Source: Brevibacterium pigmentatum
Lineage (GTDB): Bacteria; Actinomycetota; Actinomycetes; Actinomycetales; Brevibacteriaceae
Direction of reading: 5' to 3'
DNA: 64,000 bases
Assembly: GCF_011617465.1 (NCBI RefSeq)
Contig: NZ_CP050153.1
Span: 2,294,001-2,358,000, forward strand
Both the position numbers and the translations under genes were made by a program. The notes under the pieces are model-generated. The model did not search any database and had not been told where the DNA came from. It saw only the letters and a list, made by a program, of their open reading frames with translations. This document shows, piece after piece, positions 16,578 through 36,060 of the stretch. How positions within the stretch are numbered: the stretch's first letter is position 1; the number at the start of each line of letters is the position of its first letter.

Positions 16578-17552
16578 ATGACCCAGGCAGTTCGTGCAAT
16601 GCAGGCCGGTGGACCCGAGGTCCTTGAGTTCGGCGAGATCGAAACTCCGAAGCCGGGCCCTGGTGAGGTGCTCGTCAACGTCGAGGCCGCAGGCGTGAAT
16701 TTCATCGACACGTACCGCCGTTCGGGCGTCTACCCGATGGAGTACCCGCACGTCGTCGGCGTCGAGGGCACCGGATATATCGCCGAGGTGGGCGAAGGCA
16801 TTGAGAGCTGGCAAGTCGGTGACCGTGTGGCCTGGCACGAGGGCCCGGGTTCGTATGCGACGCAGGTCGTCGTGAAGGGCGATTTCCTTCTGCGTGTGCC
16901 GGAGGGCGTGTCCGCCGAGGTGGCTGCGGCGATGCCGCTGCAGGGACTGACGGCGCAGTACCTGGCGACGAGCTCGCACGAGATCAAGCCGGGACAGACG
17001 GCACTTGTGCATGCTGGTGCCGGCGGCGTCGGTCTGCTGCTCACGCAGATCATCAAGCACCTGGGCGGCAATGTCATTTCAACGGTGAGCACCGAGGAGA
17101 AGGCGGAGCTGGCGCGAAAGGCCGGCGCCGATGACGTGTTCCTCTACGGTGAGGGCGTCGACATCACGGCGAAGGTCAAGGAGCTCACCGACGGCGAAGG
17201 TGTCGATGTCGCCTATGACGGTGTCGGAAAGACGACGTTTGATGCATCGCTGGCGTCGATCAAGCCGTTGGGATCGATGGTGCTCTTCGGCGGGGCCTCG
17301 GGTCAGGTGCCGCCGTTCGACATCCAGCGATTGAACTCTTCGGGGGGAATCTTCCTGTCCCGTCCGTCTCTGGCGTGGTTCGTGCGCAGCTCGGAGGAGC
17401 TGGCGAAACGTTCGGCGATGCTCTTCAACGGCATCGAACACGGCTGGCTCAACTTCCGCGTCGGCGCCACGTTTGCTCTGGCTGATGCCGCGGATGCACA
17501 TCGGGCACTTGAGGGCCGCAAGACGACCGGCAAAGTTGTGCTGACGGCCTGA
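16578..17552 (+). CDS. NADPH:quinone oxidoreductase, zinc-free MDR family
   Basis: A 324-residue medium-chain dehydrogenase/reductase of the quinone-reductase type. GVNFIDTYRRSGVYP and VVGVEGTGYIAEVGEG mark the N-terminal GroES-like domain. VHAGAGGVGLLLTQ is the nucleotide-binding turn. The zinc ligands of alcohol dehydrogenases are absent. It probably reduces quinones or other conjugated carbonyls with NADPH. An AGGAGG ribosome site lies four bases before the ATG. It is divergent from argC and marks the left border of the defence island, which starts 130 bases downstream. Confidence 0.92.
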   Translation: MTQAVRAMQAGGPEVLEFGEIETPKPGPGEVLVNVEAAGVNFIDTYRRSGVYPMEYPHVVGVEGTGYIAEVGEGIESWQVGDRVAWHEGPGSYATQVVVKGDFLLRVPEGVSAEVAAAMPLQGLTAQYLATSSHEIKPGQTALVHAGAGGVGLLLTQIIKHLGGNVISTVSTEEKAELARKAGADDVFLYGEGVDITAKVKELTDGEGVDVAYDGVGKTTFDASLASIKPLGSMVLFGGASGQVPPFDIQRLNSSGGIFLSRPSLAWFVRSSEELAKRSAMLFNGIEHGWLNFRVGATFALADAADAHRALEGRKTTGKVVLTA

Positions 17553-17682: not shown

Positions 17683-20652
17683 ATGCACTACGAGATTGCG
17701 CATGCGCTTCCGGAGGAGAGCAAGCTAGATCAATTCGTCGACCGCAAGAGCCACGAGGAAGACCCTAAGTACCCGGCGCTAACCGACTATCAGTCGAAGT
17801 ACTTTGCACATGAGTTGCAACGTAGCCATGCGAGCGACCATGTCGGCAAGCTTGCCGGTCTTCTGTTCGACGCACAGGTTGAGCCGAAGCCTCACCAGAT
17901 CGACGCGGCGCTGTTCGCTTTGCAAACCCCGTTCCTACCAGGCGTGATCCTGGCAGATGAGGTCGGCCTCGGAAAGACAATCGAGGCCGGCATCGTCATC
18001 TCGCAATACTGGGCCGAGCGTAAGCGCCGCATCTTGATCATTGCGCCGTCGAGCCTGCGTCAGCAGTGGAAGCAGGAATTATACGAGAAGTTCCTTATCC
18101 CATCCACGATCCTAGACGCCAAGTCGAAGGGCTCGTTGCTCGCGAAGGCGGGCTCCCGTACCCCTGAAGCACTCATCTGCTCTTACGAGTTCGTCCTCCG
18201 CCACGAGACCTCACTGCTGAAGTCATGGGATCTGGTGGTGGCGGACGAGGCTCACCGCCTTCGCAGCTACTGGAACGGTAAGGCGAAAGTGGCCGAGTCT
18301 GTCTCACACGTGGCCCGGAGCGCTCACAAGACGGTGTTGCTCACAGCGACGCCACTGCAGAACAAACTCGAGGAACTATACGGGCTCGTCTCGATCTTCG
18401 ACCCCGACTACTTCTACTCACTTGATGCGTTTCGTGAGCGATATATCAAGAATCGCGACCTGACGGGCGACGACGACCTGGTCGAGCGTGTGGCAGTGAT
18501 CTCCAAGCGCACGCTCCGCAAGGACGCCAACAAGTACATCCAATTCACAAAGCGCATGCCTTTGACGGTGGAGTTCACACCGTCGCCCGCTGAAGCACGC
18601 CTGTACGACCTAGTCAACGACTATCTACAGCGCGACGAGCTGTTCGCGTTCGCAGGTTCACAGCGCCACCTCTCGGCGCTCATCATTCGCAAGCGGCTAG
18701 GTTCGTCGACGTATGCGGTTGCGAGCACGTTGGAGAATATTGCCAATCGCTTAGCGGACGAGGTGGCCGCCGGCAAGCTCCGTGATAACCGCGGCGGATT
18801 GTTCTTGGCCGACTTCGAAGCTGGCGATGAACTCGAGGCTGAGATTGCAGAGGAAGCCGAGGAGGTCTCGAACCAGACCTCAAGCGCGCAGCTCGATAGC
18901 GAAACGCTAAAACGCATGCGCGCCGAGGTAGATGAGCTCCGCGAATACGCGGAACTTGCTCGTTCGATCATCGTCAACCAGAAGGCGGTCAAGCTGAACG
19001 AGGCCCTCGATTTGGGCTTCGAGCGCCTCCGTGAGCTAGGTGCCGCCGAGAAGGCTATTATCTTCACCGACTCGACCAAGACGCAGGAGTACATCGCCCG
19101 CACCCTGGCCGACGCCGGCCGTGACGAGGGCGTCGTCTTGTTCAACGGTTCGAATACCTCTCCCGAGCAAACGGCAATCTATCAATCCTGGTTGGCGGCC
19201 AATAAGGACGGCGACCTAATTACCGGCATCCCCGCAGTCGACCGCCGCAAGGCCCTCGTTGAATACTTCCGCGACCAGGGCACGATCATGATCGCGACCG
19301 AGGCAGCGGCTGAGGGCATCAACCTTCAGTTCTGTTCGATGCTCGTCAACTACGATCTGCCGTGGAACCCGCAGCGTGTCGAGCAACGCATCGGCCGCGT
19401 CCACCGGTTCGGCCAAAAGCACAACGTTGTCGTTGTGAACTTCAGCAACAAGGGCAACGTTGCCGAGCAGCGCATCCTGGAGCTGTTGACGAACAAGTTC
19501 CAACTGTTTTCGAGCGTGTTCGGCGCCTCTGACGAGGTGCTCGGAGCGGTGGAGGACGGCCTAGACTTCGAGAAGCGAATCAGCGATATTCTCACCCACT
19601 GCAAGACAGCAGGCGAGATCGAAGCAGCGTTCAAACACCTCGAGGATCAGTTCGCGGGCGAGATCTCAAAGGAAATGGCCAGCGCTAAGGCCAAGGTCTT
19701 CGACCACCTCGATCCGCACGTGCAGGATCGTCTCAAGGCGTACGACGAACAGTCGGGCGAGGTTCTCAACAAGTTTGAGCGTCTCCTGCTTGCGATCACA
19801 CAACACGAACTGCGAGATGTCGCAACGTTCGAGGGTGACGGTCGCACGTTCGTGCTAAACCAGACTCCGACCAAGGACGCGCCAATAGGCCACTACTTCT
19901 TCAAGTCAAAGCCGCTCCCGAACGCACACCAGTATCGCTACGCGAGTCCGCTAGCACAGCACGTAACAAAAACCGCAAAGGCACACGGGACGCCCGAGCG
20001 CGAGCTGACGTTCTCGCTCGCCCAGTCGAAGCGCGCAAGTAATGCGGTCAAGGCACTCGAAGGCATGAGCGGTGACCTCACGGTCAACCTGCTGACCTTT
20101 ACGATGCAGGCCCGCGACGAAGACATTTCCGAATCATACATGCTCGCCGGTGGCATGACGGACGACGGCCAGTATCTGGATGAGGAATACGTCGCAGACA
20201 TCCTTGACCTCGCCTGCCTCAAAATTAGTGAACAACCGGCCACGGTCGACGTCACCAAGATCGAACCGCGGCTCGAAGCGCGGCTCGATGAGCTGGAGAA
20301 AGAGGTCCAGGGACGCAACTCTCGCCACTACGACCAGCAGGAGGAGTTGCTGTACCGCCACCAGCAGGATCGCAAGGCTGAACACGAAGGCAAAATCCGC
20401 GAGTACCGCACCAAGGAGAAAGCAGCTCGCAAAGCAGCGAAACAGGCGGATGACCCGATGGAGCAGCTCAAACTCAAGCGCGAGGCACGCAAGTGGGAGC
20501 GCAGGGCAGACGAAGCCGACGACGGTTTCCGCGATGCACGCCGCAAATTGCGGGCCGAGATCGACGAGAAACTCGACATGATCGAACAGTCCCTAAAAGG
20601 TACGCAGAACCGCGAGCACCTGTTCGCGATCCGTTGGCGCATCGTCGCATAG
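17683..20652 (+). CDS. SNF2-family DEAD/DEAH helicase of the defence block
   Basis: A 989-residue superfamily 2 helicase of SNF2/HepA type. Motif I is DEVGLGKT (about 92-99), motif II is ADEAHRL (about 187), and TATPLQNK is the motif III equivalent. In the C-terminal RecA lobe, IIFTDSTKTQ precedes QRIGRVHRFGQ (motif VI, about 565). A long charged coiled-coil tail (about 880-970) is rich in Lys, Glu and Arg. Such proteins translocate on duplex DNA. The ATG at 17683 has AAGGAG nine bases upstream. An earlier ATG at 17638 would add 15 residues but lacks a ribosome site. It stands 55 bases before a type III-like methyltransferase and resembles the SNF2 helicases of DISARM and similar systems, but no DrmA/B/C genes follow. 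Confidence 0.88.
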   Translation: MHYEIAHALPEESKLDQFVDRKSHEEDPKYPALTDYQSKYFAHELQRSHASDHVGKLAGLLFDAQVEPKPHQIDAALFALQTPFLPGVILADEVGLGKTIEAGIVISQYWAERKRRILIIAPSSLRQQWKQELYEKFLIPSTILDAKSKGSLLAKAGSRTPEALICSYEFVLRHETSLLKSWDLVVADEAHRLRSYWNGKAKVAESVSHVARSAHKTVLLTATPLQNKLEELYGLVSIFDPDYFYSLDAFRERYIKNRDLTGDDDLVERVAVISKRTLRKDANKYIQFTKRMPLTVEFTPSPAEARLYDLVNDYLQRDELFAFAGSQRHLSALIIRKRLGSSTYAVASTLENIANRLADEVAAGKLRDNRGGLFLADFEAGDELEAEIAEEAEEVSNQTSSAQLDSETLKRMRAEVDELREYAELARSIIVNQKAVKLNEALDLGFERLRELGAAEKAIIFTDSTKTQEYIARTLADAGRDEGVVLFNGSNTSPEQTAIYQSWLAANKDGDLITGIPAVDRRKALVEYFRDQGTIMIATEAAAEGINLQFCSMLVNYDLPWNPQRVEQRIGRVHRFGQKHNVVVVNFSNKGNVAEQRILELLTNKFQLFSSVFGASDEVLGAVEDGLDFEKRISDILTHCKTAGEIEAAFKHLEDQFAGEISKEMASAKAKVFDHLDPHVQDRLKAYDEQSGEVLNKFERLLLAITQHELRDVATFEGDGRTFVLNQTPTKDAPIGHYFFKSKPLPNAHQYRYASPLAQHVTKTAKAHGTPERELTFSLAQSKRASNAVKALEGMSGDLTVNLLTFTMQARDEDISESYMLAGGMTDDGQYLDEEYVADILDLACLKISEQPATVDVTKIEPRLEARLDELEKEVQGRNSRHYDQQEELLYRHQQDRKAEHEGKIREYRTKEKAARKAAKQADDPMEQLKLKREARKWERRADEADDGFRDARRKLRAEIDEKLDMIEQSLKGTQNREHLFAIRWRIVA

Positions 20653-20707
20653 CCTCCTACATTCACACAACGTTTTCGAATTGTTAAGCAAGGGAAGAGT
20701 GAAACTT

Positions 20708-22684
20708 ATGAGCGAAGAAGTCCACCAAACACCATCTTCAACCCCGAACTTCCAGACTGAGCTCGCGGCCCAGCTCGCCGAGCTAATGCCCGAGGTCATT
20801 GCCGACGGCAAGGTGGACGTGGAAAAGCTCAAGGAGCTGCTGGACAGTAACGCAGCCGATACCAGTGAGCGGTTCGGGCTGTTCTGGCCCGGCAAGAAGC
20901 GCGCCCTGCGTGCGGCTCAAGAGCCGACGACAGCAACGTTGCGACCGGATTTCGAGAACTCGAAAGATTGGGATTTCACAAAGAACGTGTTCATCGAGGG
21001 GGATAACCTCGAGGTGCTAAAAATCCTGCAGAAACACTACCACGCCAAGATCAAGATGATCTACATCGATCCGCCATATAACACCGGCAAGGACTTCGTC
21101 TACCCGGACAATTACAAAGAGGGGCTTGATACTTATCTCGAGTGGACGCGTCAGGTCAACAAAGAGGGAAAAAGGCTCTCGACCAATGCTGACACCGAAG
21201 GACGCTACCATTCCAATTGGCTCAACATGATGTATCCACGGCTGAAGCTCGCACGCAACCTCCTGAGCCAAGACGGCGTAATATTCCTCTCCATTGATGA
21301 CCACGAATATGACAACCTCAAGAAACTTTGTGATGAGATTTTTGGCGAATCCAATTTTCTGAACACTTTCGTCTGGGTTAGCAACCTGAAGGGCCGTCAG
21401 ATCGCTGCCAGCGGTGCGGCGGGCACCAAGGAGTACGTCCTTTGTTATGCTCGCCGAGCTGATGACGCGGGCGAATTCATTGGCTCAGGCGCAAAACTCA
21501 AGACGCTGATGCCTTCCATATATAAAGGCTTTAAATACAAAGTTGAGCACGACGAGCATGGAGCCTATGTCCTCAAGAACGAACTCCACAACACCAACTC
21601 TGTATTTAATGAAGTGACTCGCCCTAACCTAGTTTTCGACATTTACTACAATTCATCAACGGGCGATGTCAAAACTGCCGATGTATCCAATGAACACGTT
21701 TACGACGGATACATCAAGATCGCCCCAAAAAAGAACAATAACGGCACGAACAAATTTCATGCCTTTCGCTGGAGTCGGCGCAAAGTCGAATCAGAATCAC
21801 ATGACCTCTCATTCACACAGGGGGCCTCAGGCTGGAAAGTCCATACGAAAGTCCGAGATGTCGATGGAGCGACGGTCAAAGACCTCATCATGGACATCAC
21901 TACCAACGAGGGATCGGCAGATATAAAGGCAATAGGTCTCGATCCCAAGTGGTTCGAATACCCAAAGCCGGTGAACCTTGTGAAGCTTCTCATCGACATG
22001 GCTTCAGATGAAGAGTCAATCATTCTCGACTTTTTTGCCGGGTCAGGTACGACTGCACACGCTGTGATGTCACTCAACGCGGAGGACGGCGGCAATCGGA
22101 CTTTCGTTCAAGTCCAGCTTCCGGAACCGCTTCTTGAAGGTCAGCCGGCTCGACGAGCGGGTCATCATTCGATTGCCGACATTTCGGTGTCTCGAATTCG
22201 GGCCGCTAGCGCCCATATCCAGAAAGCGTCAAGCAATCGCTTGCCCGATGACAACGACCCCGACTTTGGAGTACGCGCCTACCGACTCGCGAAAACCAAC
22301 TTTGCGGCGTCGAAGCATTCTAGCGAGATTGATCCGAATCAACTGGAGCAACATCTTCTCAACTTGCGCGATAGCAGTATTGCGGACGATGCAACGGCGG
22401 ACGATCTCCTTGTTGAGATTCTCCTCAAACAAGGCTACTCGCTGACTGAACGGATAGTTCCAATCAACGTGGCCGGCCTCAACCTTCGTTCGGTGGGTGA
22501 CGGCATCGTGTTGGCCTATCTGAACAAGCAAGTCAAGCCAACGCTCGAACAGTTGCGCGCCCTCGTGCACGAAGACCCTGCTCGTCTGATCGTCCTTGAG
22601 GATACATTTCAGGGCGACGACCAGCTCAAGACCAACTTGGCTCAGCTCTGCAAGAGCTACGGCATCGAACTATGGACGGCCTGA
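20708..22684 (+). CDS. Site-specific DNA-methyltransferase, type III Mod-like (beta class)
   Basis: A 658-residue DNA adenine-N6 methyltransferase. Catalytic motif IV DPPYNTG is at about 121-127 and comes before the SAM-binding motif FFAGSGTT at about 442-449, the order of the beta class that includes type III Mod subunits. The stretch between them should hold the target recognition domain. The C-terminal 150 residues (about 510-658) contain NLRDSSIADD and lead to a helical end. The start at 20708 (MSEEVHQ) was preferred to an ATG nine codons upstream because it begins the family-like N-terminus. Its stop is two bases before the Res start. It likely marks self DNA for the block. Confidence 0.92.
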   Translation: MSEEVHQTPSSTPNFQTELAAQLAELMPEVIADGKVDVEKLKELLDSNAADTSERFGLFWPGKKRALRAAQEPTTATLRPDFENSKDWDFTKNVFIEGDNLEVLKILQKHYHAKIKMIYIDPPYNTGKDFVYPDNYKEGLDTYLEWTRQVNKEGKRLSTNADTEGRYHSNWLNMMYPRLKLARNLLSQDGVIFLSIDDHEYDNLKKLCDEIFGESNFLNTFVWVSNLKGRQIAASGAAGTKEYVLCYARRADDAGEFIGSGAKLKTLMPSIYKGFKYKVEHDEHGAYVLKNELHNTNSVFNEVTRPNLVFDIYYNSSTGDVKTADVSNEHVYDGYIKIAPKKNNNGTNKFHAFRWSRRKVESESHDLSFTQGASGWKVHTKVRDVDGATVKDLIMDITTNEGSADIKAIGLDPKWFEYPKPVNLVKLLIDMASDEESIILDFFAGSGTTAHAVMSLNAEDGGNRTFVQVQLPEPLLEGQPARRAGHHSIADISVSRIRAASAHIQKASSNRLPDDNDPDFGVRAYRLAKTNFAASKHSSEIDPNQLEQHLLNLRDSSIADDATADDLLVEILLKQGYSLTERIVPINVAGLNLRSVGDGIVLAYLNKQVKPTLEQLRALVHEDPARLIVLEDTFQGDDQLKTNLAQLCKSYGIELWTA

Positions 22685-22686
22685 TC

Positions 22687-25600
22687 ATGAGATCCAGCAC
22701 AACGAAAAGCGAGTTCAAGTTCGACGCCAGCCAGCCCTACCAACTGGACGCGATCAACTCCGTCGTCGACCTGTTTGACGGTCAGCCAAAGGACGCCGAG
22801 AAACTTGAAACGACGCTTCGCGGCCAGGTAGCCGCTGTCGACTCAAACGACATCACGACGTTTGACCTCGATCTCACGCAGGAGGTCGGCGCAGTTGGCA
22901 ACCGCCTTGTGCTCGACCGCGAAACGATACTCGCGAACCTGCGGCGGGTGCAGGACAAGAACGGCCTCGAGGTTGCTGCGAAGCTCTTTGATCAATCCGC
23001 GCTCAACTTCGACATCGAGATGGAAACGGGCACGGGCAAGACGTACGTATATCTCCGCACAATCTTCGAGCTGGCCACGCGGTATAGTTTCACCAAATTT
23101 GTCATTCTCGTCCCGAGTGTGGCGATCCGTGAGGGAGTGAACACTAGTATCCGGCTAATGCGTTCGCATTTTGAAGAGCTGTACAAGAAACGTGGCATTA
23201 CGTTCGATTCGTCAGTTTACAGCGGTAAGGCTGCGGACGAGGTCCGCGGTTTCGCGACATCGACCAACGTACAGATCATGGTCATGACCATAGATTCCAT
23301 CCGCGGCAACGCCAATACTCGAATCATGCACCAGGCACGTAACCAGCTAGGTGGTCTGCGGCCAGTGGACTATTTGAAAGCAACGCATCCCGTCGTCATC
23401 ATGGACGAGCCGCAGAATATGGAGTCCCTCCTCTCTCAGTCCGCATTGAGTGAACTCGATCCGGTGTTCACGTTGCGTTACAGCGCGACGCACAAGAAGC
23501 TCCGCAACGTCGTCTATCGACTCGATCCCGTCGACGCGCACGACCTCGGGCTGGTGAAACAGATCGTGGTGGCCGATGTGCAGCAACAGGGTGCGGACGC
23601 GACACCGTACATCAAGCTGGTTGAGGTCAAAAATGACAAGGGGTGGGTTGCCCGGCTGGAACTATCCTGCCGCAAGGCGGACGGTACGCTTGAGCGCCGC
23701 GTGGTAAACGTCAAGCAGAACCAGGAGCTGTCAGATCCCCGTCTGTCCGACAACGCGAGTTACGACGGCTGGCGCGTCAACGAGATGAGCATAGAACCCG
23801 CTTACGTCGACCTCACACTCCATGGCTACATGTACCAGGGCGAGAGCATCGGCGGCTCCTCGGGGGCGGTCTACAAGGAGATGATCCGAGAGACAATCAA
23901 GGAGCACCTCCGAAAGGCGACGCAGCTACGCGCCAGGGGTATAAAGGTGCTCAGTCTGTTCTTCATCGATAAAGTCGAGAGCTTCCTCGGTGATGGCTCG
24001 AATAACAACGATGCGAATGGTCAGTTCGTGAAGTGGTTCGACGAGCTGTATTTAGAGGAGCGCTCCAAGTCGTCGCAGTGGCAGGAACTGCTGCCACAGG
24101 ATCCGGCCGCGCTGCGCCGCGGCTATTTCTCTGTCCTCAAAGGCAAAAAAGGAGCAGCCGACAAGTTCCACGACACGTCCGGCACCACCAAGGCTGACGA
24201 TGACGCCTATGAGCTGATTATGCAGGACAAGGAGCGTCTACTTGACGCGAACGAACCGACACAGTTCGTCTTCAGCCACTCTGCCTTACGAGAGGGCTGG
24301 GACAACCCGAACGTCTTCCAGATCTGTACCCTGCGCGAAATGGGCGCCGAGACAGAACGCCGCCAGACACTCGGTCGTGGCTTGCGCCTGCCAGTCGCGA
24401 GGAGCGAAGGCGGCTACGAGCGTGTAGCGGATCGTGGCATAGCTACGCTGACTGTGGTCGCGAACGAGTCGTACACGCAGTTCGCCGACGCGCTCCAGAA
24501 AGAGTACAAGGACGCAGGCGTCGAGATCGGCCGCGTACGCAAGGCGGAGTTCTCAAAGATCCCACTACAAAACCCCGATGGGTCGCTCACCGATGAGAGG
24601 CTCGGTTACACAACATCTGTGTCAATCTGGGAGCATCTGCTCGCTCAAAGATTCATCGACAAGGACGGCGTTGTGCAACCGAAGTTCCAACCGAACACGG
24701 TTGGCTTCAGCCTCAATATGCCCGCCGATTTCGTTTGGACAGAGCCCTTTGTAATCGAATTGATAAGTCGCGCCAACATCGGCAAGTACATCAAAAACAA
24801 AAGAAAACGCTACCCTAGGACGCTTAACAAGGAACTGTTCGCTAATCCGGAATTCGAGATTTTCTGGGAGACTATCAGCCGACGCACTACGTACCGCGTC
24901 GAGTTGGAACGCGACAAGATCATTGAGAACTCGGTTAAGGCGATCAAGGAAGCACCGAATATCGATCCACTGCGAATCCAGGTCACACGCGCGGGAGTGA
25001 AGGTGCTTCGCGGTGGCACGAAGGGCCAGGAGCTTGGCTCGCGCCAGCAGGAGCTTCGCGGTAGCTACGATCTTCCGGACATTATCCAAGAGCTGCAGGA
25101 AGCCACTTCCCTGACCCGAAAGACAATCGTCGACATCCTCGTCGGCAGTGGCCGACTGGACGAGTTCATTGCAAATCCCAACGACTTCATCAGCATGGCA
25201 AAGCGCCTCGTTCAGACCGAGCTCGCCAAACGCGTCGTTGACGGTGTGCAGTATGAGAGGATCGCAGGCTCTGTCTATGAGCTGCGTGAACTCCAAAAGG
25301 ATGGTGCGGAAGAAAAGGAACGTTTTCTTGACCAGATGTACAAACTCGAAAACGCAGAGAAGTCGAACTTCGACTACATCGTGTACGACTCCGATCCCGA
25401 ACGGCAGTTTGCCGAACTACTCGACGGCCGCGAGGACATCAAGTTCTTTATGAAGCTGCCTGACAAGTTTAAGATCGACACTCCGGTCGGGCCATATAAC
25501 CCAGACTGGGCAATCGTAAAACACGAGAGCGGCGAAGAGCATGTCTACATGATCCGAGAGACAAAAAGTACCCTTGATGTTTCAAAACTCAGACCTACAG

Positions 25601-25695
25601 AACTAGCAAAGACGATCGCAGCCAAACGACACTTCAAAGCCATTGGAATCGACAACTATCAGTTATCTGCCCCTGACGATTGGAACCTGCAGTGA
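22687..25695 (+). CDS. Type III restriction Res-like helicase-endonuclease
   Basis: A 1002-residue protein. The N-terminal SF2 helicase has Walker A ETGTGKT (about 112-118), a DEPQ motif II (about 239-242), and REGWDNPNV plus RRQTLGRGLRLPV as motifs V and VI. The C-terminal PD-(D/E)XK nuclease shows YNPDWAIV followed by MIRETKST, giving the D...E-x-K triad near residues 940-960. This is the ATP-dependent cutting subunit expected to work with the Mod protein encoded directly upstream. The ATG at 22687 lies two bases after the mod stop. Its own TGA overlaps the next gene as GTGA. Nothing suggests truncation. Confidence 0.93.
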   Translation: MRSSTTKSEFKFDASQPYQLDAINSVVDLFDGQPKDAEKLETTLRGQVAAVDSNDITTFDLDLTQEVGAVGNRLVLDRETILANLRRVQDKNGLEVAAKLFDQSALNFDIEMETGTGKTYVYLRTIFELATRYSFTKFVILVPSVAIREGVNTSIRLMRSHFEELYKKRGITFDSSVYSGKAADEVRGFATSTNVQIMVMTIDSIRGNANTRIMHQARNQLGGLRPVDYLKATHPVVIMDEPQNMESLLSQSALSELDPVFTLRYSATHKKLRNVVYRLDPVDAHDLGLVKQIVVADVQQQGADATPYIKLVEVKNDKGWVARLELSCRKADGTLERRVVNVKQNQELSDPRLSDNASYDGWRVNEMSIEPAYVDLTLHGYMYQGESIGGSSGAVYKEMIRETIKEHLRKATQLRARGIKVLSLFFIDKVESFLGDGSNNNDANGQFVKWFDELYLEERSKSSQWQELLPQDPAALRRGYFSVLKGKKGAADKFHDTSGTTKADDDAYELIMQDKERLLDANEPTQFVFSHSALREGWDNPNVFQICTLREMGAETERRQTLGRGLRLPVARSEGGYERVADRGIATLTVVANESYTQFADALQKEYKDAGVEIGRVRKAEFSKIPLQNPDGSLTDERLGYTTSVSIWEHLLAQRFIDKDGVVQPKFQPNTVGFSLNMPADFVWTEPFVIELISRANIGKYIKNKRKRYPRTLNKELFANPEFEIFWETISRRTTYRVELERDKIIENSVKAIKEAPNIDPLRIQVTRAGVKVLRGGTKGQELGSRQQELRGSYDLPDIIQELQEATSLTRKTIVDILVGSGRLDEFIANPNDFISMAKRLVQTELAKRVVDGVQYERIAGSVYELRELQKDGAEEKERFLDQMYKLENAEKSNFDYIVYDSDPERQFAELLDGREDIKFFMKLPDKFKIDTPVGPYNPDWAIVKHESGEEHVYMIRETKSTLDVSKLRPTELAKTIAAKRHFKAIGIDNYQLSAPDDWNLQ

Positions 25696-27584
25696 GAATA
25701 CATAATGTCCAAATTCGAAACTTTCGCACCCTTGCCGATGTCTCAATAAATTTTGATTCGGTAACCACTTTCATAGGTCCTAACGGCAGCGGAAAGTCGA
25801 CAGTCCTTCACGCTCTCGACTGGTTTTTCAATGGAAAGCCTGGCGACATGAGTGAAGAAGACTGTTCTTTCGGAGCGACAGACAGGGATATCGAGGTCCA
25901 AGTTACATTCTCTGACCTAACACAACTAGACCGCGCCGAACTCGGAAAGTACGCACCAGATTCAGTTGAGACCTTCACTGCATGGAAGAGACGAACGCCA
26001 ACGGGAGACGAAACACTTTCGGCTAACGCAAAAGGATTCCCAGAATTCAATGAAATAAAGAAGGCCACTACGGCAAAATTAAAAAAGGAGCTTTACTCCC
26101 ACCTCAGGAACGAGCGGAAAGACTTGGACTTGCCGCTAGCCAACACTGCCACCTCAATCGACCAGGCTATAACAACTTGGGAATCCGAACATAATGATCA
26201 ACTTTCCAACTTGCCCGAAGAACTTCAGACAAACTTTTTTGGCTTCAACAGTGGCGGAAAAATGAGTGGGCTTTTCGACTTTGTCCTTGTCACCGCCGAT
26301 CTTCGGGCTAGCGAAGAATCACTCGACGCGAAAGCCAGCATACTCGGACGCATTCTGGAACGTACAATCGATCGTTCTGCTGCCGATGATGAGATTGCAC
26401 AAATCATAGATGAGAGCCGCAAAAAGCAACAAGCAGTTTATAACGCTAAGTTCAATTCAGAACTTCTGGAATTAACGCAGCATTTGAATGACACCGTCGC
26501 GAAATACTCGCCGGGCAGGGAGATAAACGTCAACCCTTCCGAAATCGAACTCAAATCACCCAAGACTACTTTTGACGTGACGGTGAAGGACGGCGATACG
26601 TCTACGGCTGTCGAACGTCAGGGACATGGGTTCCAACGAACAATGCTGATATCGGCCCTTCAAGTTCTTGCAGAATCTGGAACCGCATCAGAACAAGGTG
26701 TCATTTGCCTAGCAATTGAAGAGCCCGAATTGTACCAGCACCCCATTCAGGCGCAAGGATTTGCAAAAGTATTGCGTGCATTGGCTGAAGATTCTGAGAA
26801 CAATATCCAGGTTACCTACGCGACTCACAGCCCTTACTTTGTTGAGGCTCGACACTTCGATCAGGTTCGCCGGCTAACGCGAACTGCAGAAGAACACCCA
26901 CGCGTAACCATTCACCATTCTACCGTCGCGAATATCAGAAACACACTGGATGGTTTCATGAAGCCCGAGGCAGTGGATCGACAAATAGATTCCATCCTAG
27001 CCAACCAATTGTCCCTAGCGCTCTTTTCGCAACGCGTACTTCTCGTAGAAGGCACTACCGAACTTGCCGTCTTTTACGGCATCGGAGATCGTGAAGCCGT
27101 AGCTTTTCTCGAAGCAGCCGGAGTATCCATTGTGGCGACTGGCGGGAAGACGAACATTCCAGTCCTCCACTCGATACTCAGCGCACTGGGCATCCCAACC
27201 TACACGCTATTCGATGGCGACGGAGGCTTCGAAACACGCGCTCGCGCCAAAGGCAAGAGTGATGAGAAAATTGCCAGTGAACGAAATAACCACGTAGCCG
27301 CAAATAAAACGCTACTGAAATATTTCGATCTTCAAGTCACCGATTTTCCACCTGCTCAGATCCATGACCGCGTAGCAGTATTTGACGATCATCTAGAATC
27401 GTATATGGCCGCCTATTGGCCCGATTGGGTCACTTCTTGCGAAGCAGTCGAGGCCGAAATGGGTATATCACTCTCAAAAAATCAATCCGCTTACCGACTG
27501 GCCACGTTAAATGCCAAAGGCCCTATACCCGAGATGTTAAAAGCCATTATCGAGCACGCTAAATCGATCGAATTCATTAGATGA
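25692..27584 (+). CDS. OLD-family ATP-dependent endonuclease (AAA ATPase plus TOPRIM)
   Basis: A 630-residue OLD-type protein. The N-terminal SMC-like ATPase has IRNFRTLADVSI, Walker A GPNGSGKST (about 29-37), and a C-terminal ATPase half with LAIEEPELYQHP as Walker B. The TOPRIM domain follows with LLVEGTTELAVFYGI (about 450) and TLFDGDGGFE (about 505). OLD proteins are nucleases found in phage exclusion (P2 Old) and in Gabija as GajA. The GTG start overlaps the res stop as GTGA, so it is probably translationally coupled. Its codon use is visibly AT-richer than the arginine genes, a sign of transfer. No UvrD-like GajB gene follows directly. Confidence 0.9.
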   Translation: MRIHNVQIRNFRTLADVSINFDSVTTFIGPNGSGKSTVLHALDWFFNGKPGDMSEEDCSFGATDRDIEVQVTFSDLTQLDRAELGKYAPDSVETFTAWKRRTPTGDETLSANAKGFPEFNEIKKATTAKLKKELYSHLRNERKDLDLPLANTATSIDQAITTWESEHNDQLSNLPEELQTNFFGFNSGGKMSGLFDFVLVTADLRASEESLDAKASILGRILERTIDRSAADDEIAQIIDESRKKQQAVYNAKFNSELLELTQHLNDTVAKYSPGREINVNPSEIELKSPKTTFDVTVKDGDTSTAVERQGHGFQRTMLISALQVLAESGTASEQGVICLAIEEPELYQHPIQAQGFAKVLRALAEDSENNIQVTYATHSPYFVEARHFDQVRRLTRTAEEHPRVTIHHSTVANIRNTLDGFMKPEAVDRQIDSILANQLSLALFSQRVLLVEGTTELAVFYGIGDREAVAFLEAAGVSIVATGGKTNIPVLHSILSALGIPTYTLFDGDGGFETRARAKGKSDEKIASERNNHVAANKTLLKYFDLQVTDFPPAQIHDRVAVFDDHLESYMAAYWPDWVTSCEAVEAEMGISLSKNQSAYRLATLNAKGPIPEMLKAIIEHAKSIEFIR

Positions 27585-29812: not shown

Positions 29813-32800
29813 TCACATCTTCGTCGTCTGCACCGCCAGAAATTGAACTTCGGCGATAGCGCCCAAGAGTGGGAGGTGGAGGAGTACCTGTGCTGGGGCG
29901 TTTCCACCGGTCGTCTGCAATGCCTTACGGTAGACGGCCATCTGGCCGAGGTACTTCTCCCGGATATGACCAACTGGGTCGGTTCCCGGATACGACTTAT
30001 GGTCGACAAGGATATGGTCCCGATTCGGTAGAAGAATGCGGGAGTCGATCCAGCCTTCCATCACCTGTGCGTCATCGTTGCGCCAGGCTATTGGGGACTC
30101 TGTGACCACCTCGGCGCCGGGGTACCTCGTCTCCACCCATTCGGTCCACCGTTTACCGACTTCGATGAGCACGTCCGCATTCAGCACACCGTCGGCATCC
30201 CAGCGCGAGAGGATCCGCTCGGCCGCTGTCCGCTTCAGTTCATCGGTCAGTGTGGAAAGAGGCAACCCCAGGTAGGCGTGGACAGCGTCGCCGACGCGAT
30301 CCCAGTCTTTTCCGCCCTTGTCCACCAACGGCTCCCCCAACTTGGCAAGGATCCCCACTTCGGCCTCGACACCGATTGAAGGCACGCTGCTCGCGGTGAA
30401 CCGTGCCGGCAGGTGAGGCTCAACCGAAATCGAACCTCGGATAGGAATGTCCGTGTGGGCGAAGAACGACCGCGGCAAACCAGTCGAATCAGCCGTGGGG
30501 CAGTCTTCGATGTCGATCGGCAGGGCACTGATACGAATCGGCATCTCCGTCAAAGCATCGCGTCCGTTGCTTCGCCGGTCGGCGACGCGCAGGACTCCGT
30601 GCTCGTCGACGGCAATCGCTGATTGGTCGGCGCCCGTCGGCTTCTCCCATTCGAGCAGGCCTTCCGCCACAGAACTGGTGAGGACATTATCCGTGCCCGT
30701 GGGGTCTCCGAACGCCACGATGCTGTGAGTCTCGGCCCGGGTGAGCGCGACATAGAGCAACCGTGCGGTCTCTTCCTTCTCTGCTTGCCCTGCGCGACTG
30801 ACCGCATCCAGACGGCTCAATCGGACCTTTAATGGGTCATAGTCCTTGAGCACACGAGGCAGGAACCGCAGAGCACGATTCGCCAAGGGATGACGCGCGT
30901 CGAAAACCGGAGCCTTCTCCACGGTGATCTCCCGGTGCCCATAGTCTTTGGCCACGGGAACACCGACGATGACGACCGGCCACTGCAGACCTTTCGACTG
31001 GTGCATGGTCGTCACGAGCACGGCATCGTGAGCTGTCGTCTGTTCATAGGATCCGGCCGCCTCGGTGAGGTAATCGAGCAGGCCTGCTGGAGTGACCGGC
31101 GAACGCGTCTGTTCCGAAGCGTCCGCATATTCACCGGCGATCTGGCACAGGGAATCAAGCGTTGCCAGACGGTTCTCCGGTGTTGTCCACGCTTTGATCC
31201 GCTGCGGCAGGTCGAGGGCATCGATGATGCTCAGCAGCAGGTCAACCGGTGAGTGATGAGCGGCATTGAGCGCCAGTTCCGACAGGGCGGCCAGCGCGGG
31301 ATCATCCCACCACGTCCGAGGCTGGTCACGCCGTTCTTTCTTGTCGACGATCCGTGCCGCATCTTCGAACCATGTGTCGTGGCTGCCATGGTCGGGCATG
31401 AGAGTGACGAGTTCGGCGAGCGCCACCGCGTCGTCCCGGTCGACGACCGCGGCCAAACCGGCGGCAACGAACTGTCCTTCCCTGGTTGAAAGCAGATCGC
31501 TGGTCGACCCTACTGCGCGGATGCCGCGTTCGCGAAGTTCAGAGACGACCCGGGAGACCTGAGAGTTCGTGCGAACGAGGACAGCGATATCGCCCTGTTT
31601 GACGTCGCCGTCGGGCAACTGAGGCGAGCGCTGCAAGAAATCTTCGACTCCCGCGGCAATGGCTTTACCCATCCGCGTGTCCGCGGATCGAGTTCCGCCA
31701 GCTGTCGTGGTCGGTACCCAGAGTTCGCGGCTGCCAATGTGGCGCAGGTGTTCACGCTGCGGCGGGATGCTCAGCACCACCTCGCTTTCCTTCTGGTCGG
31801 CGAAGACCGAGCTGAAGAGAGTATTCGACAGATCGAGAGCCGGTTCGGTCGAGCGCCAGGACGCGCCGAGGTTCTCCGAAGTGGCCTTGCCCAGTTCTGT
31901 CTTTCCATCGATGAGTGCCGAAAAGACATCGTTCATCAGCTCAGGGTCGGCTCCGCGGAATCCGTAGATGGCCTGTTTGCGATCGCCCACCCAGATGACT
32001 TCGTCGACGAGGTCGGCGAGTTCCATGAAGATCGCCAACTGGATGGGAGACGAGTCTTGGAACTCATCGACGGCGAGCAGGCGGTAACGAGAAGCGATCG
32101 ATGTCCTCACTCGTTCGTTCGTGCGCAGCAGGTCAAGGGCGCGAACCTCCTGGTCGACGAAATCCATGACCCCGAGGGTGTTCTTGTGTTCCTCATACGC
32201 CGACAGTGACGCGATCGCTGTGTCAATGACGAGGGTGATCAGTGCCTCGATGTCAGAGTGGAAGGCACTGTTGGCGAGGAGTTCCTCAGACACGAGGCGA
32301 GCGCTCGACTCATCGAGAACCTGTTTGGGCACTGCTCCGGGCGCCTTCCCACCTGGCACGGCCGTGTACTTCCGCTCTGCCACCTTCGCCCATGTCGACC
32401 ACGGGACTCGCGCGAACGGAGCAGCCTCCTCGGCGCCGTTCTCGAGTCCACGGAGGAAGCGGTCAAGGGTGACGATGCTGCCTTCTACGTTGCCTTCGTT
32501 GGTCTTCGTCACCTTCGGCCCCTCAGACGGAGGTTCCTCGCCGTTCTGGAAGACTCGCAGTGCGTCGCGCAGCTGCTCGATGTCGCCGGCCAACCTGTCA
32601 CACCACTTCTGCCGTCCGTCTCCCCCAGCGGCAGGAAGAGCTGAGAGGAAGAGCTCCGCCGAAGCGCGTGCCGATGCTCGCAGTGCGGCCTCGCCGAGGT
32701 GGTTCGCCCGGGCCGCCTCGGCGACGGATCTGACAAGGTCGGACCAGACGACGGGTCCGTGGCCGAACGCGTTCGTATCACCGGGGCTGCCGTTATGACC

Positions 32801-33214
32801 GGTGCGGACGAGCAGATCGCGGTGAGTGGCTTCAGCTTCGGCAACAACCGCGTCGACGGCTGTGGTGAAGACGATCGCCTGTTCCTGTTCGTCGAGTACA
32901 CGCAGTTCTGGTGAGAATCCAGCGTCGATGGCGTATTCAGTGACGAGGCGGCCGGACATCGAGTTGATGGTGCCGATGAGTGCGGTGCTGATCTCCTCGG
33001 CGGCGGTGATGTTCCCGTCATCGAGGAGTCGCTTCTGCGTCTTTTCGACGAGGTCGGCCGCGGCGCGGACGGTGAACGTGGTGGCGATGACTTCGCTGGC
33101 GCGCAGGACGGGTTGGCCGTCGTCTGTTGTCTGCGACAGTCGTTCGGAGAGCACTTCCGTCAGTCGGTACGTTTTGCCTGATCCTGCCGAGGCGGTGATG
33201 ACGTGAACGCTCAT
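29813..33214 (-). CDS. UvrD-like helicase with C-terminal RecB-type nuclease (AddA-like)
   Basis: A 1133-residue superfamily 1A helicase-nuclease. Helicase motifs in order are ASAGSGKTYRL (about 8-18), ATTFTVRAAADL, AVDEFQDSSPIQ (about 385), VGDRKQAIYGFRG, TTMHQSKGLQWPVV and LLYVALTRAETH. The C-terminal nuclease has EGWIDSR (about 1053), ILVDHKSYPG and GQMAVYRKAL, giving the D...D-x-K...Q-x-x-x-Y pattern of RecB nucleases. Its ATG overlaps the stop of the upstream nuclease partner as ATGA, so the two form a pair like AddAB. Actinobacterial housekeeping usually relies on AdnAB, where both subunits have helicase motifs, so this pair is probably accessory. Confidence 0.9.
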   Translation of the reverse strand: MSVHVITASAGSGKTYRLTEVLSERLSQTTDDGQPVLRASEVIATTFTVRAAADLVEKTQKRLLDDGNITAAEEISTALIGTINSMSGRLVTEYAIDAGFSPELRVLDEQEQAIVFTTAVDAVVAEAEATHRDLLVRTGHNGSPGDTNAFGHGPVVWSDLVRSVAEAARANHLGEAALRASARASAELFLSALPAAGGDGRQKWCDRLAGDIEQLRDALRVFQNGEEPPSEGPKVTKTNEGNVEGSIVTLDRFLRGLENGAEEAAPFARVPWSTWAKVAERKYTAVPGGKAPGAVPKQVLDESSARLVSEELLANSAFHSDIEALITLVIDTAIASLSAYEEHKNTLGVMDFVDQEVRALDLLRTNERVRTSIASRYRLLAVDEFQDSSPIQLAIFMELADLVDEVIWVGDRKQAIYGFRGADPELMNDVFSALIDGKTELGKATSENLGASWRSTEPALDLSNTLFSSVFADQKESEVVLSIPPQREHLRHIGSRELWVPTTTAGGTRSADTRMGKAIAAGVEDFLQRSPQLPDGDVKQGDIAVLVRTNSQVSRVVSELRERGIRAVGSTSDLLSTREGQFVAAGLAAVVDRDDAVALAELVTLMPDHGSHDTWFEDAARIVDKKERRDQPRTWWDDPALAALSELALNAAHHSPVDLLLSIIDALDLPQRIKAWTTPENRLATLDSLCQIAGEYADASEQTRSPVTPAGLLDYLTEAAGSYEQTTAHDAVLVTTMHQSKGLQWPVVIVGVPVAKDYGHREITVEKAPVFDARHPLANRALRFLPRVLKDYDPLKVRLSRLDAVSRAGQAEKEETARLLYVALTRAETHSIVAFGDPTGTDNVLTSSVAEGLLEWEKPTGADQSAIAVDEHGVLRVADRRSNGRDALTEMPIRISALPIDIEDCPTADSTGLPRSFFAHTDIPIRGSISVEPHLPARFTASSVPSIGVEAEVGILAKLGEPLVDKGGKDWDRVGDAVHAYLGLPLSTLTDELKRTAAERILSRWDADGVLNADVLIEVGKRWTEWVETRYPGAEVVTESPIAWRNDDAQVMEGWIDSRILLPNRDHILVDHKSYPGTDPVGHIREKYLGQMAVYRKALQTTGGNAPAQVLLHLPLLGAIAEVQFLAVQTTKM

Positions 33215-36060
33215 GAGTGGTCCCCCGCGATGCCGTAGATGAGGTTGAAGTTGCTGTAGGACTGGTTCTTGGCCACAAAGAGACGGCCTTCTTCCAGCTC
33301 ATCCGCTTTGATGGTCTTGAGCGCTTTGTCCACCTGTGTGCTCTTGGTGTGGGGGTTGACGCCGAATTCGGCGTGGACGTCTGCGCTCAGTGAGTTGAAG
33401 CGGCCGGTGGCGATGGCGGACAGTGTGTGTTCGATTGAGGCTTGGATCATCGGCCATAGTCCTGCGGGATCGCCACCGAGTCCGTTGCCGTCATCATCGA
33501 AGCTGTCGGCTGTTCCGGCATTAAAGTTCTCGTCGAGGCCGGAGTCGGTCGAGATGAATCGTCCTTGTTTGAGCATGAAGTACGCGGTGAGTGGGTTGGC
33601 ACCCGTCGGCGAGTCGCTGGTGTGTGAGTAGATGCTCAGCTGGACGGCTTCACCGTCATCGATCATCGTTCGATAGCGCTTCTCGTAGTTCGCCCATTTG
33701 AGGTCGATGATTGCCGGTCGGCCGTCGCTGAACGCGCCTTCAAGATCGCGCTGTCCTCTCAGCTGAACGGTCATTGCTTCGCCGGCGACGGTCAGTACCC
33801 AGTCGTGGTCGAAGCCGGTTTCGGCGCCGACGATCGTGATGCCGCGGTTTCTGAGCGTGGTGAACAGATGAACCAACGATGCGGTTGCGGTGGACCTGAT
33901 CGTGTTTTTACGTGCCAGCTGCCCCGGCAGGAGCAGCTCGGAAGCGAACCGTGGGACGAGCCGGTCGAAGGCCTTCGCGATGTCGGCGGGTGTGGTCGCC
34001 GAGGTGTCGCTGTCGTTCCTGGCCTGCACAAGGTCTTCGACCACGGCGTGAGCCAAATTGCCGATCATGCGGTTGTCTGTGGGGATGTCGAAAGTGAACC
34101 CGCGACGCAGGCCGAGGCCGCGTTCGAGCGTCCAGCCCAACGGGTCGGAGAGCAACTGGTCGATCTGGCTGAAGGACAGCGTCTCCGGCAAGAGGTGGCG
34201 GAAGTCGCCTTCGAGGACGCGCGAGACTCTGTTCGGGGCAGTGAACTGTTCGAGGCTGACGATCGACGTCGGAATGGCCACGTCATCCAGTTGCCATGTC
34301 TCGTCTGTGATGAGATCCGCGACGGTCCGAGCGACCGTCGGGTCGGAAAGCACTGCGTCGACGGATGCGTTTGGAAAGTGCTCGCGGTCTGCAGCTGAGA
34401 TGTCTTCTGCCAGTCGTGAAAGTACGGGGTGGAGGGCCACGGGTTCGCCTCGGCTGGTCTCGGGGCAGAAGCAGATGAGGTTCACAGCGGCGCGGAGACC
34501 GTCGAGTTCGGCGGCTTGTCTCAGTCGTTCTTTCTCTGTCGAGGTGGAGATCCGGACTCCTGATTGCGCCAGTGCGTCGATTTCGGCTGGGTCCCAGGTC
34601 TCGTTCGCCGAGGTGGCTGAGCGCTGTGAACACCACCAGATGACGGTGTCGGTGCCTTCCGGGACTTCTGCGGGGCTGGTGACGACCGTCCAGTCGGCGG
34701 CTTGGGCGTGGGCGTCGACTCGGGTTGCAGTCGGTGCACTGGATTCTGCGATGTCGAAGAGCTCGCGGACTCGGATGGTGTTCGTACCGAGCCGGGAGAT
34801 GGCGGCGCGGAAGGACGCGAGGTGGGTGGCCGCCTCGGCGATCAATGCGGTGGTGTCGTCCTGTGCTGTGTCAGCGATGCGGTTGCCGTTCAGTCTGCGC
34901 AGGCGTGTAGCCAACCAGTCCAATGCGGGGTTGAGGGAGGCGAGGTCGAGCTCGTCTGAATCGGCCGCGGGCGGCCTGGTGCGCAGGAAACCGTCTAGTG
35001 CTTGCTCGGTCTCCCAGGCTCGGGTGGCGGTGTCGGCGTTCTCGGCTGTTCGGGATTTCAATTGGTCGAGAGCGTGCATCCACGCGGACTCAGGGTCGCT
35101 GGAGATACCCGGTTCTTGGGTGAGGGCTTGCAGGAGCACCGACGACACTCCCTGCGGAACGAGCGACGTGGCGGGGGAAGTTGCGTCGTTTGTGCCGAAG
35201 GAGAGATGCAGGAACTCGGCGACTCGACGGATATCGGTCGGGGGCAAGACAGCGCCGAGGAAGACAGGGAGTATCTGGGCGGACGGATTTGCTGGGTTGG
35301 AGTCGGCGATTCCGAGCGTCGGCGCCTGTCGTCGTGCCAGCTGTTGGTCGAGGACAGCGGTGGCATCGCCGGCGATGATGCAGGTGCGCTCTCGGTCGTT
35401 CACATTTGCGAGGTACCGGGCGGCCGCCTCGGCGGTGGACCAGGTATCGGGGCCGCGCACGATGGTGAGTTGCGGCGTTTCCGTTGGTGCTGCGGACTCC
35501 GTGACGGTCACGCCTGCAGCTTCTACCGCGCCGAGGATGTCCTGCCACACCTGCGGGAGAGTATCCCTCTTGTCACGCAGTTCGATCGAATCGATTCCGA
35601 GCGGCCAACTAGCTCCGTATAGCCGGAGCAACTCGAGAGATTCGCGCACGTCGTCTGCACGACCGGGCGCAAGCGTTGCGGCGGTGTCATGTGGCGGACC
35701 GATCACGACGAGACTTTCGACTGTAGCCAAGGCGTCGAGTCGAGGGTGTGCGGAGTAATCCTGGCCGTCATTGGCCGGTTTCCAACCAGCCTCGATCGCG
35801 TCGTCGCGCAGCTCGAGCAGATGGTGGGCGGTGTTCCAGGGGTCGTTAGCGAACGACCGGCGATACCAAGGATGGTCAGCTTGTGCCAGCAACGACCGGT
35901 ATTGAGCGATGCGAATGGGGCGGTCGATGGTGGGTCGGGTCGTGCCCAATCGAGTCTGGAGGATGCCGAGCAGACCTAGCGGGCCGGTGACAACGATCGT
36001 TCCCGTTGTGTCAGTCGACCACGGTGCCCGATCGAGGTTCCATCCGAAGACGATGCGCAT
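33211..36060 (-). CDS. PD-(D/E)XK nuclease partner subunit (AddB-like)
   Basis: A 949-residue protein encoded upstream of, and overlapping, the UvrD-like gene. The C-terminal third carries a RecB-type nuclease: GQRDLEGAF (about 767), PAIIDLKWANYEKRY and EAVQLSIYSH, matching the D...D-x-K...Q-x-x-x-Y pattern. I see no Walker A site at the N-terminus, so it lacks its own helicase, as AddB does. I chose the ATG at 36060 (MRIVFGWNLDRAPW). A copy of this start region is found again at 38753-38829. It likely processes DNA ends with its partner. Whether it protects against phage is inference from its place in the island. Confidence 0.8.
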   Translation of the reverse strand: MRIVFGWNLDRAPWSTDTTGTIVVTGPLGLLGILQTRLGTTRPTIDRPIRIAQYRSLLAQADHPWYRRSFANDPWNTAHHLLELRDDAIEAGWKPANDGQDYSAHPRLDALATVESLVVIGPPHDTAATLAPGRADDVRESLELLRLYGASWPLGIDSIELRDKRDTLPQVWQDILGAVEAAGVTVTESAAPTETPQLTIVRGPDTWSTAEAAARYLANVNDRERTCIIAGDATAVLDQQLARRQAPTLGIADSNPANPSAQILPVFLGAVLPPTDIRRVAEFLHLSFGTNDATSPATSLVPQGVSSVLLQALTQEPGISSDPESAWMHALDQLKSRTAENADTATRAWETEQALDGFLRTRPPAADSDELDLASLNPALDWLATRLRRLNGNRIADTAQDDTTALIAEAATHLASFRAAISRLGTNTIRVRELFDIAESSAPTATRVDAHAQAADWTVVTSPAEVPEGTDTVIWWCSQRSATSANETWDPAEIDALAQSGVRISTSTEKERLRQAAELDGLRAAVNLICFCPETSRGEPVALHPVLSRLAEDISAADREHFPNASVDAVLSDPTVARTVADLITDETWQLDDVAIPTSIVSLEQFTAPNRVSRVLEGDFRHLLPETLSFSQIDQLLSDPLGWTLERGLGLRRGFTFDIPTDNRMIGNLAHAVVEDLVQARNDSDTSATTPADIAKAFDRLVPRFASELLLPGQLARKNTIRSTATASLVHLFTTLRNRGITIVGAETGFDHDWVLTVAGEAMTVQLRGQRDLEGAFSDGRPAIIDLKWANYEKRYRTMIDDGEAVQLSIYSHTSDSPTGANPLTAYFMLKQGRFISTDSGLDENFNAGTADSFDDDGNGLGGDPAGLWPMIQASIEHTLSAIATGRFNSLSADVHAEFGVNPHTKSTQVDKALKTIKADELEEGRLFVAKNQSYSNFNLIYGIAGDHS

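Follow-up and report, generated by a model that had tools for sequence, protein, structure and literature searches.

We analysed a window of 64,000 nucleotides (nt) from the 3.9-Mb chromosome of Brevibacterium pigmentatum (contig NZ_CP050153.1, positions 2,294,001 to 2,358,000) that carries in one row the genes for an SNF2-family helicase, a type III-like methyltransferase (Mod), a type III-like restriction nuclease (Res) and an OLD-family ATPase-nuclease. In the textbook view, type III restriction takes two genes. Among the relatives of this locus SNF2, Mod and Res form a fixed core, a stretch of Mod is variable, and the gene behind Res is replaced between near-identical cores. Judged from gene order and sequence similarity, the locus is probably a type III pair with a fixed SNF2 gene and a cargo slot after res, which here holds OLD, likely as a second line of defence.

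The four-gene block

An earlier note on this DNA had listed the four genes with their spacing, and both were verified: four open reading frames (ORFs), all intact, follow each other on the forward strand at 17683-27584 (Table 1). The SNF2 frame is open from 17638 to 20652, and its in-frame ATG at 17683 gives a protein of 989 amino acids (aa). The SNF2 stop is separated by 55 nt from the ATG of Mod (20708; an in-frame TTG at 20681 is a possible alternative) and Mod by 2 nt from the ATG of Res (22687; the alternative in-frame ATG at 22672 would overlap Mod), while the GTG start of OLD at 25692 lies within a GTGA whose TGA is the stop of Res. The GC content at third codon positions is 0.48 in OLD vs 0.70 in Res.

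Pfam domains were assigned above cut-off throughout: SNF2-rel_dom and Helicase_C in SNF2, N6_N4_Mtase in Mod, ResIII and RE_endonuc (PF04851 and PF19778) in Res, and AAA_15 (160.9 bits) with OLD-like_TOPRIM (62.7 bits) in OLD. The PADLOC models gave MTase_III for Mod (572.7 bits), REase_III for Res (892.6 bits), and Old (200.9 bits) vs GajA (102.6 bits) for the OLD protein. The best profile for SNF2 was DrmD (580.2 bits in PADLOC; 584.7 bits for NCBIfam DrmD_b), with weaker matches to HmaA (206.8 bits) and one DrmA model (114.6 bits). Among solved structures, SNF2 came closest to RapA and chromatin remodellers, Mod to EcoP15I and other Mods, and Res to EcoP15I; the OLD protein came closest to OLD of Thermus scotoductus (6p74, 87.2 bits), followed by GajA (36.9 bits). 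An AlphaFold2 prediction from the SNF2 alignment A1 (mean predicted local distance difference test score 52.7, predicted template modelling score 0.32) was too poor for use.

Mod is a beta-class enzyme with DPPYNTG before FAGSGTT (the DPPY-before-FxGxG order), homology to type III Mod proteins and a variable, likely target-recognition stretch, within which FAGSGTT (near residue 450) falls. Res combines the SF2 helicase motifs METGTGKT and DEPQ with a C-terminal PD-(D/E)XK nuclease (YNPDWAI...RETKS). The OLD protein is an AAA_15 ABC ATPase fused to an OLD-like TOPRIM domain, as in the OLD family. The earlier suggestion of type III-like restriction, encoded by closely packed genes, is thus borne out.

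Table 1. Features of the locus, with positions in the window.
Feature	Position	Strand	Role or basis
Zinc-binding dehydrogenase gene	16578..17552	+	Invariant left flank of the island in three Brevibacterium species
SNF2-family helicase (DrmD-like)	17683..20652	+	Constant partner of the core; profile matches, conserved motifs
Type III Mod, beta-class adenine methyltransferase	20708..22684	+	Profiles; EcoP15I Mod 4zcf_A 195.5 bits
Variable stretch of Mod, likely target-recognition region	21278..22330	+	About residues 200-550 of P0002 (Mod)
Type III Res, SF2 helicase with RE_endonuc nuclease domain	22687..25695	+	Profiles; EcoP15I Res 4zcf_C 188.7 bits
GTGA junction, start of the cargo slot	25692..25695	+	Overlap of the Res stop with the slot-gene start
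Slot cargo: OLD-family ABC ATPase with TOPRIM nuclease domain	25692..27584	+	Profiles; Walker A/B, TOPRIM E and DxD present
UvrD-like and PDDEXK_1 pair	29813..36081	-	Invariant right flank of the slot in those three species; accessory

A fixed SNF2-Mod-Res core

An SNF2-anchored scan of named genome contigs (alignment A1, 22 sequences) gave 83 relatives, of which the best 80 loci (L numbers; G numbers denote genomes) were analysed. Ten of these were cut by contig ends (L043, L068, L069, L085, L086, L093, L094, L098, L099, L105). A type III-like Mod and Res stood beside SNF2 in 67 of the 70 readable relatives, which bears out the idea of SNF2 as a true third partner. Mod and Res were intact and close together in 59 loci (51 in the order SNF2-Mod-Res, 8 in the order Mod-Res-SNF2) and disrupted or distant in six (L039, L097, L100, L101, L102, L113); in two (L080, L082) SNF2 lay beside another Mod and a Res-like helicase, with weak REase_III matches for that of L080. 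The three exceptions were L056, which has no Mod-Res, and the SNF2 fragments L103 and L114. Over the aligned sequences, the window included, Walker A and DEAH were kept in SNF2 (62/62), DPPY in Mod (58/58, after leaving out 4 of 62 sequences shorter than 550 aa) and METGTGKT with DEPQ in Res (47/48, the exception being a Res piece of 152 aa in L060). The association of SNF2 with Mod-Res is far above chance; that with OLD is not general.

The SNF2 gene is accessory, with matches in 4/60 genomes of the family (E<=1e-100) and 10/396 genomes of a phylum sample (E<=1e-80); the corresponding figures for Res are 6/60 (E<=1e-50) and 23/396 (E<=1e-30). The two lay together in four genomes of the phylum sample (G000, G298, G374, G076), and six SNF2 genomes had no Res match, a long methylase adjoining SNF2 in two of them (G131, G185). 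A phage collection gave no SNF2 match at E<=1e-60. Res identity between genera reached 97%.

When the window Mod was compared with those of L038, L096 and L035, whose Res proteins are 87-89% identical to that of the window, identity was 0.84-0.98 over residues 50-200 and 0.20-0.58 over about residues 200-550. Six other close pairs also dropped at about residue 150-200, and L074/L075 stayed low through to the end. This is the pattern expected for an exchange of target recognition.

Some loci show further rearrangements. In L039/L156 (B. senegalense) an interrupted Mod is separated by about 15 kb from pieces of Res, another SNF2-like gene of 1100 aa and companions lying in between. A second Mod-Res end stands immediately upstream of the full SNF2-Mod-Res of L050 (Arthrobacter sp. 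zg-Y769), the two Res tails being nearly identical, which suggests a possible tandem duplication. Additional genes (DUF262, RhuM and others) occur between Mod and Res in L073, L149, L153, L186 and L188, a second insertion position.

A probable cargo slot at the Res stop

Among the 51 loci with the same gene order as the window, 47 with at least 1 kb after Res were counted, a slot gene being defined as one of 150 aa or more that runs in the direction of res and has its start at -30 to +260 nt relative to the Res stop. In 37/47 the slot was occupied, and 25 of these genes began within 20 nt of that stop. A start codon (ATG or GTG) of the slot gene fell at -4 to +2 nt from it in 22/47, exactly at -4 in 14, vs 2/46 (L054, L064) when the identical start-stop test was applied upstream of SNF2. 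A looser upstream count, in which genes of at least 100 aa and longer overlaps were permitted, found a co-directional gene within 260 nt in 15/47 and within 20 nt in 3/47 (window included), these three overlapping by 34-52 nt. Two loci with the Mod-Res-SNF2 order (L078, L079) carry a homologous gene of 337 aa after SNF2, the scanned copy of which (L078) matched PDC-S19/DUF3644.

Fourteen of the 37 first-slot proteins were scanned singly with PADLOC (E<=1e-10), and the defence fraction given here refers to these 14. Matches were obtained for 12, namely Ppl-like (L035, L061), Tmn (L038), IetA (L096), PDC-S06/AAA_13 (L040, L051, L112, two of which also matched PrrC weakly), OLD/AriA-like (L046), GmrSD/HEC-06 (L073), Mokosh-like (L055), QatA (L060, 268 bits) and DRT4 (L074, Drt4 517 bits); a PDC-S06 match among them reached 854 bits. 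L057 has HamB (730 bits) in second place in its slot. When the slot proteins were scanned as a set through alignments, a procedure that counts members per family and not members with any match, mad3 (a generic ATPase model) matched 12/37 and Old 6/37, and no model exceeded 12/37 in the slot vs 2/35 among upstream proteins. Since 12/14 match known or candidate defence models, the slot behind Res could be a cheap source of new defence effectors. In L045, L071 and L084 a common DUF6414 gene (Pfam match on L045) and an AAA gene form the front of the cargo, behind which lie either PDC-S06-like or OLD-like genes, as a swap nested inside the slot.

Exchange of slot content between near-identical cores

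Single-linkage clustering of blastp matches divided the 37 slot proteins and that of the window (38 in all) into 24 clusters. The largest (8 members) held the window OLD with L047, L051, L063, L075, L107, L111 and L112, which were joined partly via shared ABC-ATPase parts. Related cargo families recur among the slot proteins, but related cargo was rare even at high Res identity (4/51 pairs at 90% or more, 0/50 at 80-89%, 36/602 below 80%), and a near-identical Res is therefore no predictor of cargo. At the DNA level the last 200 nt of res were 84-94% identical in 11 pairs outside a Brevibacterium trio, and identity over the 200 nt after the Res stop was 0.47-0.54 in 11 of 14 pairs, shuffled sequence giving 0.47. 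The remaining three pairs (L045/L084, L063/L107, L048/L084) stayed high and have a common cargo start, which in L048/L084 extends over 200 nt only. Since res is 84-94% identical up to its stop in the pairs compared outside Brevibacterium, cargo was probably exchanged by recombination inside the conserved gene.

The trio consists of the window, B. antiquum (L038/L171) and B. sandarakinum (L096/L172), in which Res is 87-91% identical and both flanks are common, the left dehydrogenase flank with 82% DNA identity over 7.3 kb and the right UvrD-like/PDDEXK_1 pair with 69-75%. Between these flanks the window has OLD and an insertion sequence (IS), B. antiquum a YobI/Tmn-like ATPase of 1253 aa, and B. 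sandarakinum an IetA-like ATPase with a gene of 464 aa without PADLOC match. Different cargo between constant flanks argues against a mere change of insertion site.

OLD itself proved to be one of many occupants. The earlier proposal of the four genes as one co-evolved set was not sustained, as a close OLD (62-64% identity) follows Res in only 2/47 same-order relatives (L063, L107, both Nesterenkonia). Two more slot proteins (L047, L111) are distantly OLD-like (23-29%), and the others are unrelated genes, other ABC ATPases or nothing. In six further OLD-matching genomes of the sample of 396, OLD was away from SNF2-Mod-Res matches in the 13-19 kb read (6/6). The earlier note had named, as what would speak against it, extra genes missing from close Mod-Res relatives and found at unrelated loci; this holds for OLD and fails for SNF2. 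A single four-gene system was accordingly rejected.

Proposed explanation and alternatives

The following scheme is drawn from the known behaviour of the protein families. Mod would mark asymmetric sites on host DNA and Res, bound to Mod, would cut unmarked DNA, as in classical type III action. SNF2, as a double-strand DNA motor, may help the complex to travel along protein-covered phage DNA or to clear it. The slot effector is likely coupled translationally to Res: with its start codon at the Res stop, the gene would probably be read for the most part by ribosomes that are just finishing Res. Such coupling could limit the amount of a dangerous ATPase-nuclease, postpone its appearance until a new host is protected by Mod (a delay reported for EcoP15I Res), and ensure that it accompanies restriction at all times. 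Where a phage blocks or escapes restriction, the cargo (here OLD) would act as a backup effector, by analogy with PrrC/EcoprrI, PARIS, BREX and Dnd. A wider proposal, plausible without being probable, is that SNF2-Mod-Res is a mobile immunity chassis with two exchangeable modules, the recognition stretch of Mod and the effector at the Res stop, which would place Qat, Hachiman, DRT4, IetA-type, PrrC-like and OLD effectors under restriction-timed translation so that they fire when restriction fails.

Several observations weigh against a dedicated slot of defence cargo. Gene calls followed a simple ORF rule, and by the slot definition ten of the 47 same-order loci are empty (L050, L054, L058, L064, L072, L077, L088, L090, L109, L110), so that the core does not need a slot gene. 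A start codon at -4 to +2 is lacking in 15 of the 37 slot genes, and the slot is looser in the Mod-Res-SNF2 order. The 101 pairs in which Res identity is 80% or higher, four of them with related cargo, are not independent of each other, and the last 200 nt of res are only 62-77% identical in the three Brevibacterium pairs. With regard to content, the model with the highest slot count is the generic mad3, ABC-ATPase models cross-match, and single linkage places the window OLD with AAA_13 proteins. L044 (510 aa, its start resembling a serine recombinase as judged by eye), L066 (PDDEXK_1) and L036, the latter two without PADLOC match, are not obviously defensive, and the upstream side has defence genes too, which means that common clustering in islands accounts for some of the signal. 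In other settings Hachiman, Qat and DRT4 are known as autonomous systems, which weakens dependence on restriction.

One alternative is that there is no slot, a mobile core having landed beside the varied defence genes of islands so that the gene after Res is only a local neighbour. The high Res identity between genera, the defence genes upstream and the region after the dehydrogenase gene, which is an insertion hotspot in the genus, are in its favour. We nevertheless regard it as unlikely, given the excess of start codons at the Res stop over those upstream of SNF2, the recurrence of related cargo families and the swap of cargo between the same two neighbours in three Brevibacterium loci. Less likely still is a single machine of SNF2, Mod, Res and OLD with two nucleases: tight spacing, the GTGA overlap and the two Nesterenkonia loci with the same families in the same order would suit it, but the OLD frame is shortened or split in both of these, 45/47 same-order relatives have another gene, a distant OLD-like gene or none in the slot, OLD homologues occur in six other genomes away from SNF2-Mod-Res, and the base composition of OLD is unlike that of Res. 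Very improbable, finally, is that SNF2 belongs to a DISARM- or Hma-type system beside which Mod-Res is incidental. DrmD is indeed its best profile, followed by HmaA and a DrmA model, but the NCBIfam DrmD models score below their cut-offs (950 and 610 bits), SNF2 tracks type III-like Mod-Res in 67/70 loci, and no further DISARM gene and no DUF499 was found among the 25 best matches of each of the four proteins or in the flanking genes (nine scanned with Pfam, three with PADLOC). A type III pair with a fixed SNF2 gene and a cargo slot thus remains the reading we prefer.

PADLOC-DB and NCBIfam name the four proteins only as separate families, and no description of SNF2-Mod-Res with a slot was found in the literature searched, which covered few subscription papers; the earlier note likewise could name no system of this exact gene set. 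The clade spans many actinomycete genera and combines a fixed third gene, the SNF2 motor, with a defined place of effector exchange between near-identical cores. It offers a handle on the role of accessory SNF2 motors in restriction, and on how restriction loci bring toxic backup effectors safely into new hosts.

Neighbouring genes and related layouts

Directly after OLD, at 27689-29289 on the reverse strand, lies a transposase-like remnant of two ORFs, one of 292 aa with a Pfam DDE_Tnp_1 match and one of 241 aa without it, that resembles an IS with an interrupted frame. The UvrD-like protein to its right has 1133 aa, and its 25 best PADLOC matches are GajB-like or RT-helicase segments; the PDDEXK_1 protein (956 aa), matched in 4/29 relatives, had no PADLOC match. 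The window contains no tRNA genes.

A sister layout was found among the 22 other Res-matching genomes of the phylum sample, of which 15 regions were read (G039, G098, G165, G173, G233, G383 and G387 were left out). A helicase with blastp similarity to P0001 (SNF2) stood beside Mod and Res in 12/15 but not in G380, G346 or G342, the last a short contig. Of these 12 regions, nine encode an SNF2-like protein (981-1146 aa in eight, cut at the locus edge in one), then a product of about 204-271 aa and finally Mod and Res; Pfam DUF4391 was assigned in two of three such intervening genes scanned (L141 and L150, not L142). Eight regions of 128 further matched records were read: helicase-DUF4391-Mod-Res is annotated on plasmids of Paraburkholderia, Methanomethylovorans, Enterococcus and Providencia, with the variants SNF2-Mod-Res in Cupriavidus and SNF2-Mod-DUF262-Res in Rhizobium, and no annotated helicase upstream in the incomplete gene tables of Thiodictyon and Aeromonas hydrophila. 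The layout thus occurs across phyla, an archaeal plasmid included (L141, L150, L185, L187, L190, L191). No description of DUF4391 together with restriction was found in the literature searched.

SNF2 relatives with 40% identity occur on plasmids of Escherichia coli and Aeromonas media and also in Deinococcus (L192, L194, L193). Those of the two plasmids lie with a DEAD/DEAH helicase and a long methyltransferase of about 1050 aa, with an AAA ATPase and DUF4276 pair inserted between in Aeromonas; in Deinococcus an AIPR gene follows SNF2.

Comparison with known systems

Other restriction-modification operons with SNF2-family or Rad25-like helicases and MORC ATPases have been described (PMC2292703). 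The helicase-DUF4391-Mod-Res operons of actinomycetes, proteobacteria, firmicutes and an archaeon likewise have an SNF2-like helicase upstream of a type III Mod-Res; they differ from the window in that the helicase (981-1146 aa) is only weakly similar, a gene of DUF4391 size is added and Res is 32-38% identical by blastp, or up to 41% in the search of the phylum sample.

According to PMC9142583, DISARM is defined by a DrmA and DrmB core with a DrmMI or DrmMII methylase. Alignment of the SNF2 protein with NCBIfam DrmD extends from residue 70 to residue 997 and scores 256.2 bits vs a cut-off of 610, and DrmD_b at 584.7 bits stays below 950. DrmB was not found among the matches listed, the DrmA match is a weaker helicase cross-match (114.6 vs 580.2 bits), the methylase is a type III Mod, and the flanking genes scanned held no DISARM core gene. 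Hma or type 1 BR comprises a helicase, an m5C methyltransferase and a DUF499-type ATPase (PMC8565338 and PMC12839542), and here the methylase is an N6_N4_Mtase and none of the four proteins matched DUF499. The window OLD shares ABC ATPase and TOPRIM with P2 OLD, Thermus scotoductus OLD and GajA. Gabija does not fit, as the GajA score is half of that of Old; unlike GajA, the window OLD has no GajB gene directly beside it, the UvrD-like gene with GajB-like segments (111.4 bits) lying 2.2 kb away on the other strand, and its start overlaps res.

Backup effectors beside modification systems are already published. OLD-TOPRIM is described among the backup effectors of BREX (PMC12839542), and backups are described for Dnd systems (PMC10853773); OLD-TOPRIM, GmrSD and other effectors stand there beside a modification-based core, as here, and the cores are BREX/DUF499 and Dnd, unlike the type III core of the window. 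In PMC12839542 the phrase 'type III restriction' has 0 occurrences. PMC12707154 reports that translation of Res is delayed in EcoP15I and that PrrC beside EcoprrI is active upon restriction inhibition.

As far as our searches go, a type III SNF2 core with a defined, swapping slot that overlaps the Res stop is unpublished. Mod and Res resemble EcoP15I (4zcf) by sequence, and to the canonical two genes of type III systems such as EcoP15I and EcoP1I the locus adds a fixed SNF2 gene and a cargo slot. PrrC in the EcoprrI type I operon and PARIS likewise provide an effector that answers inhibited restriction (PMC12707154 and PMC12839542); unlike these, the locus here joins its effector to a type III operon that includes SNF2, and many unrelated families replace one another at the effector position.

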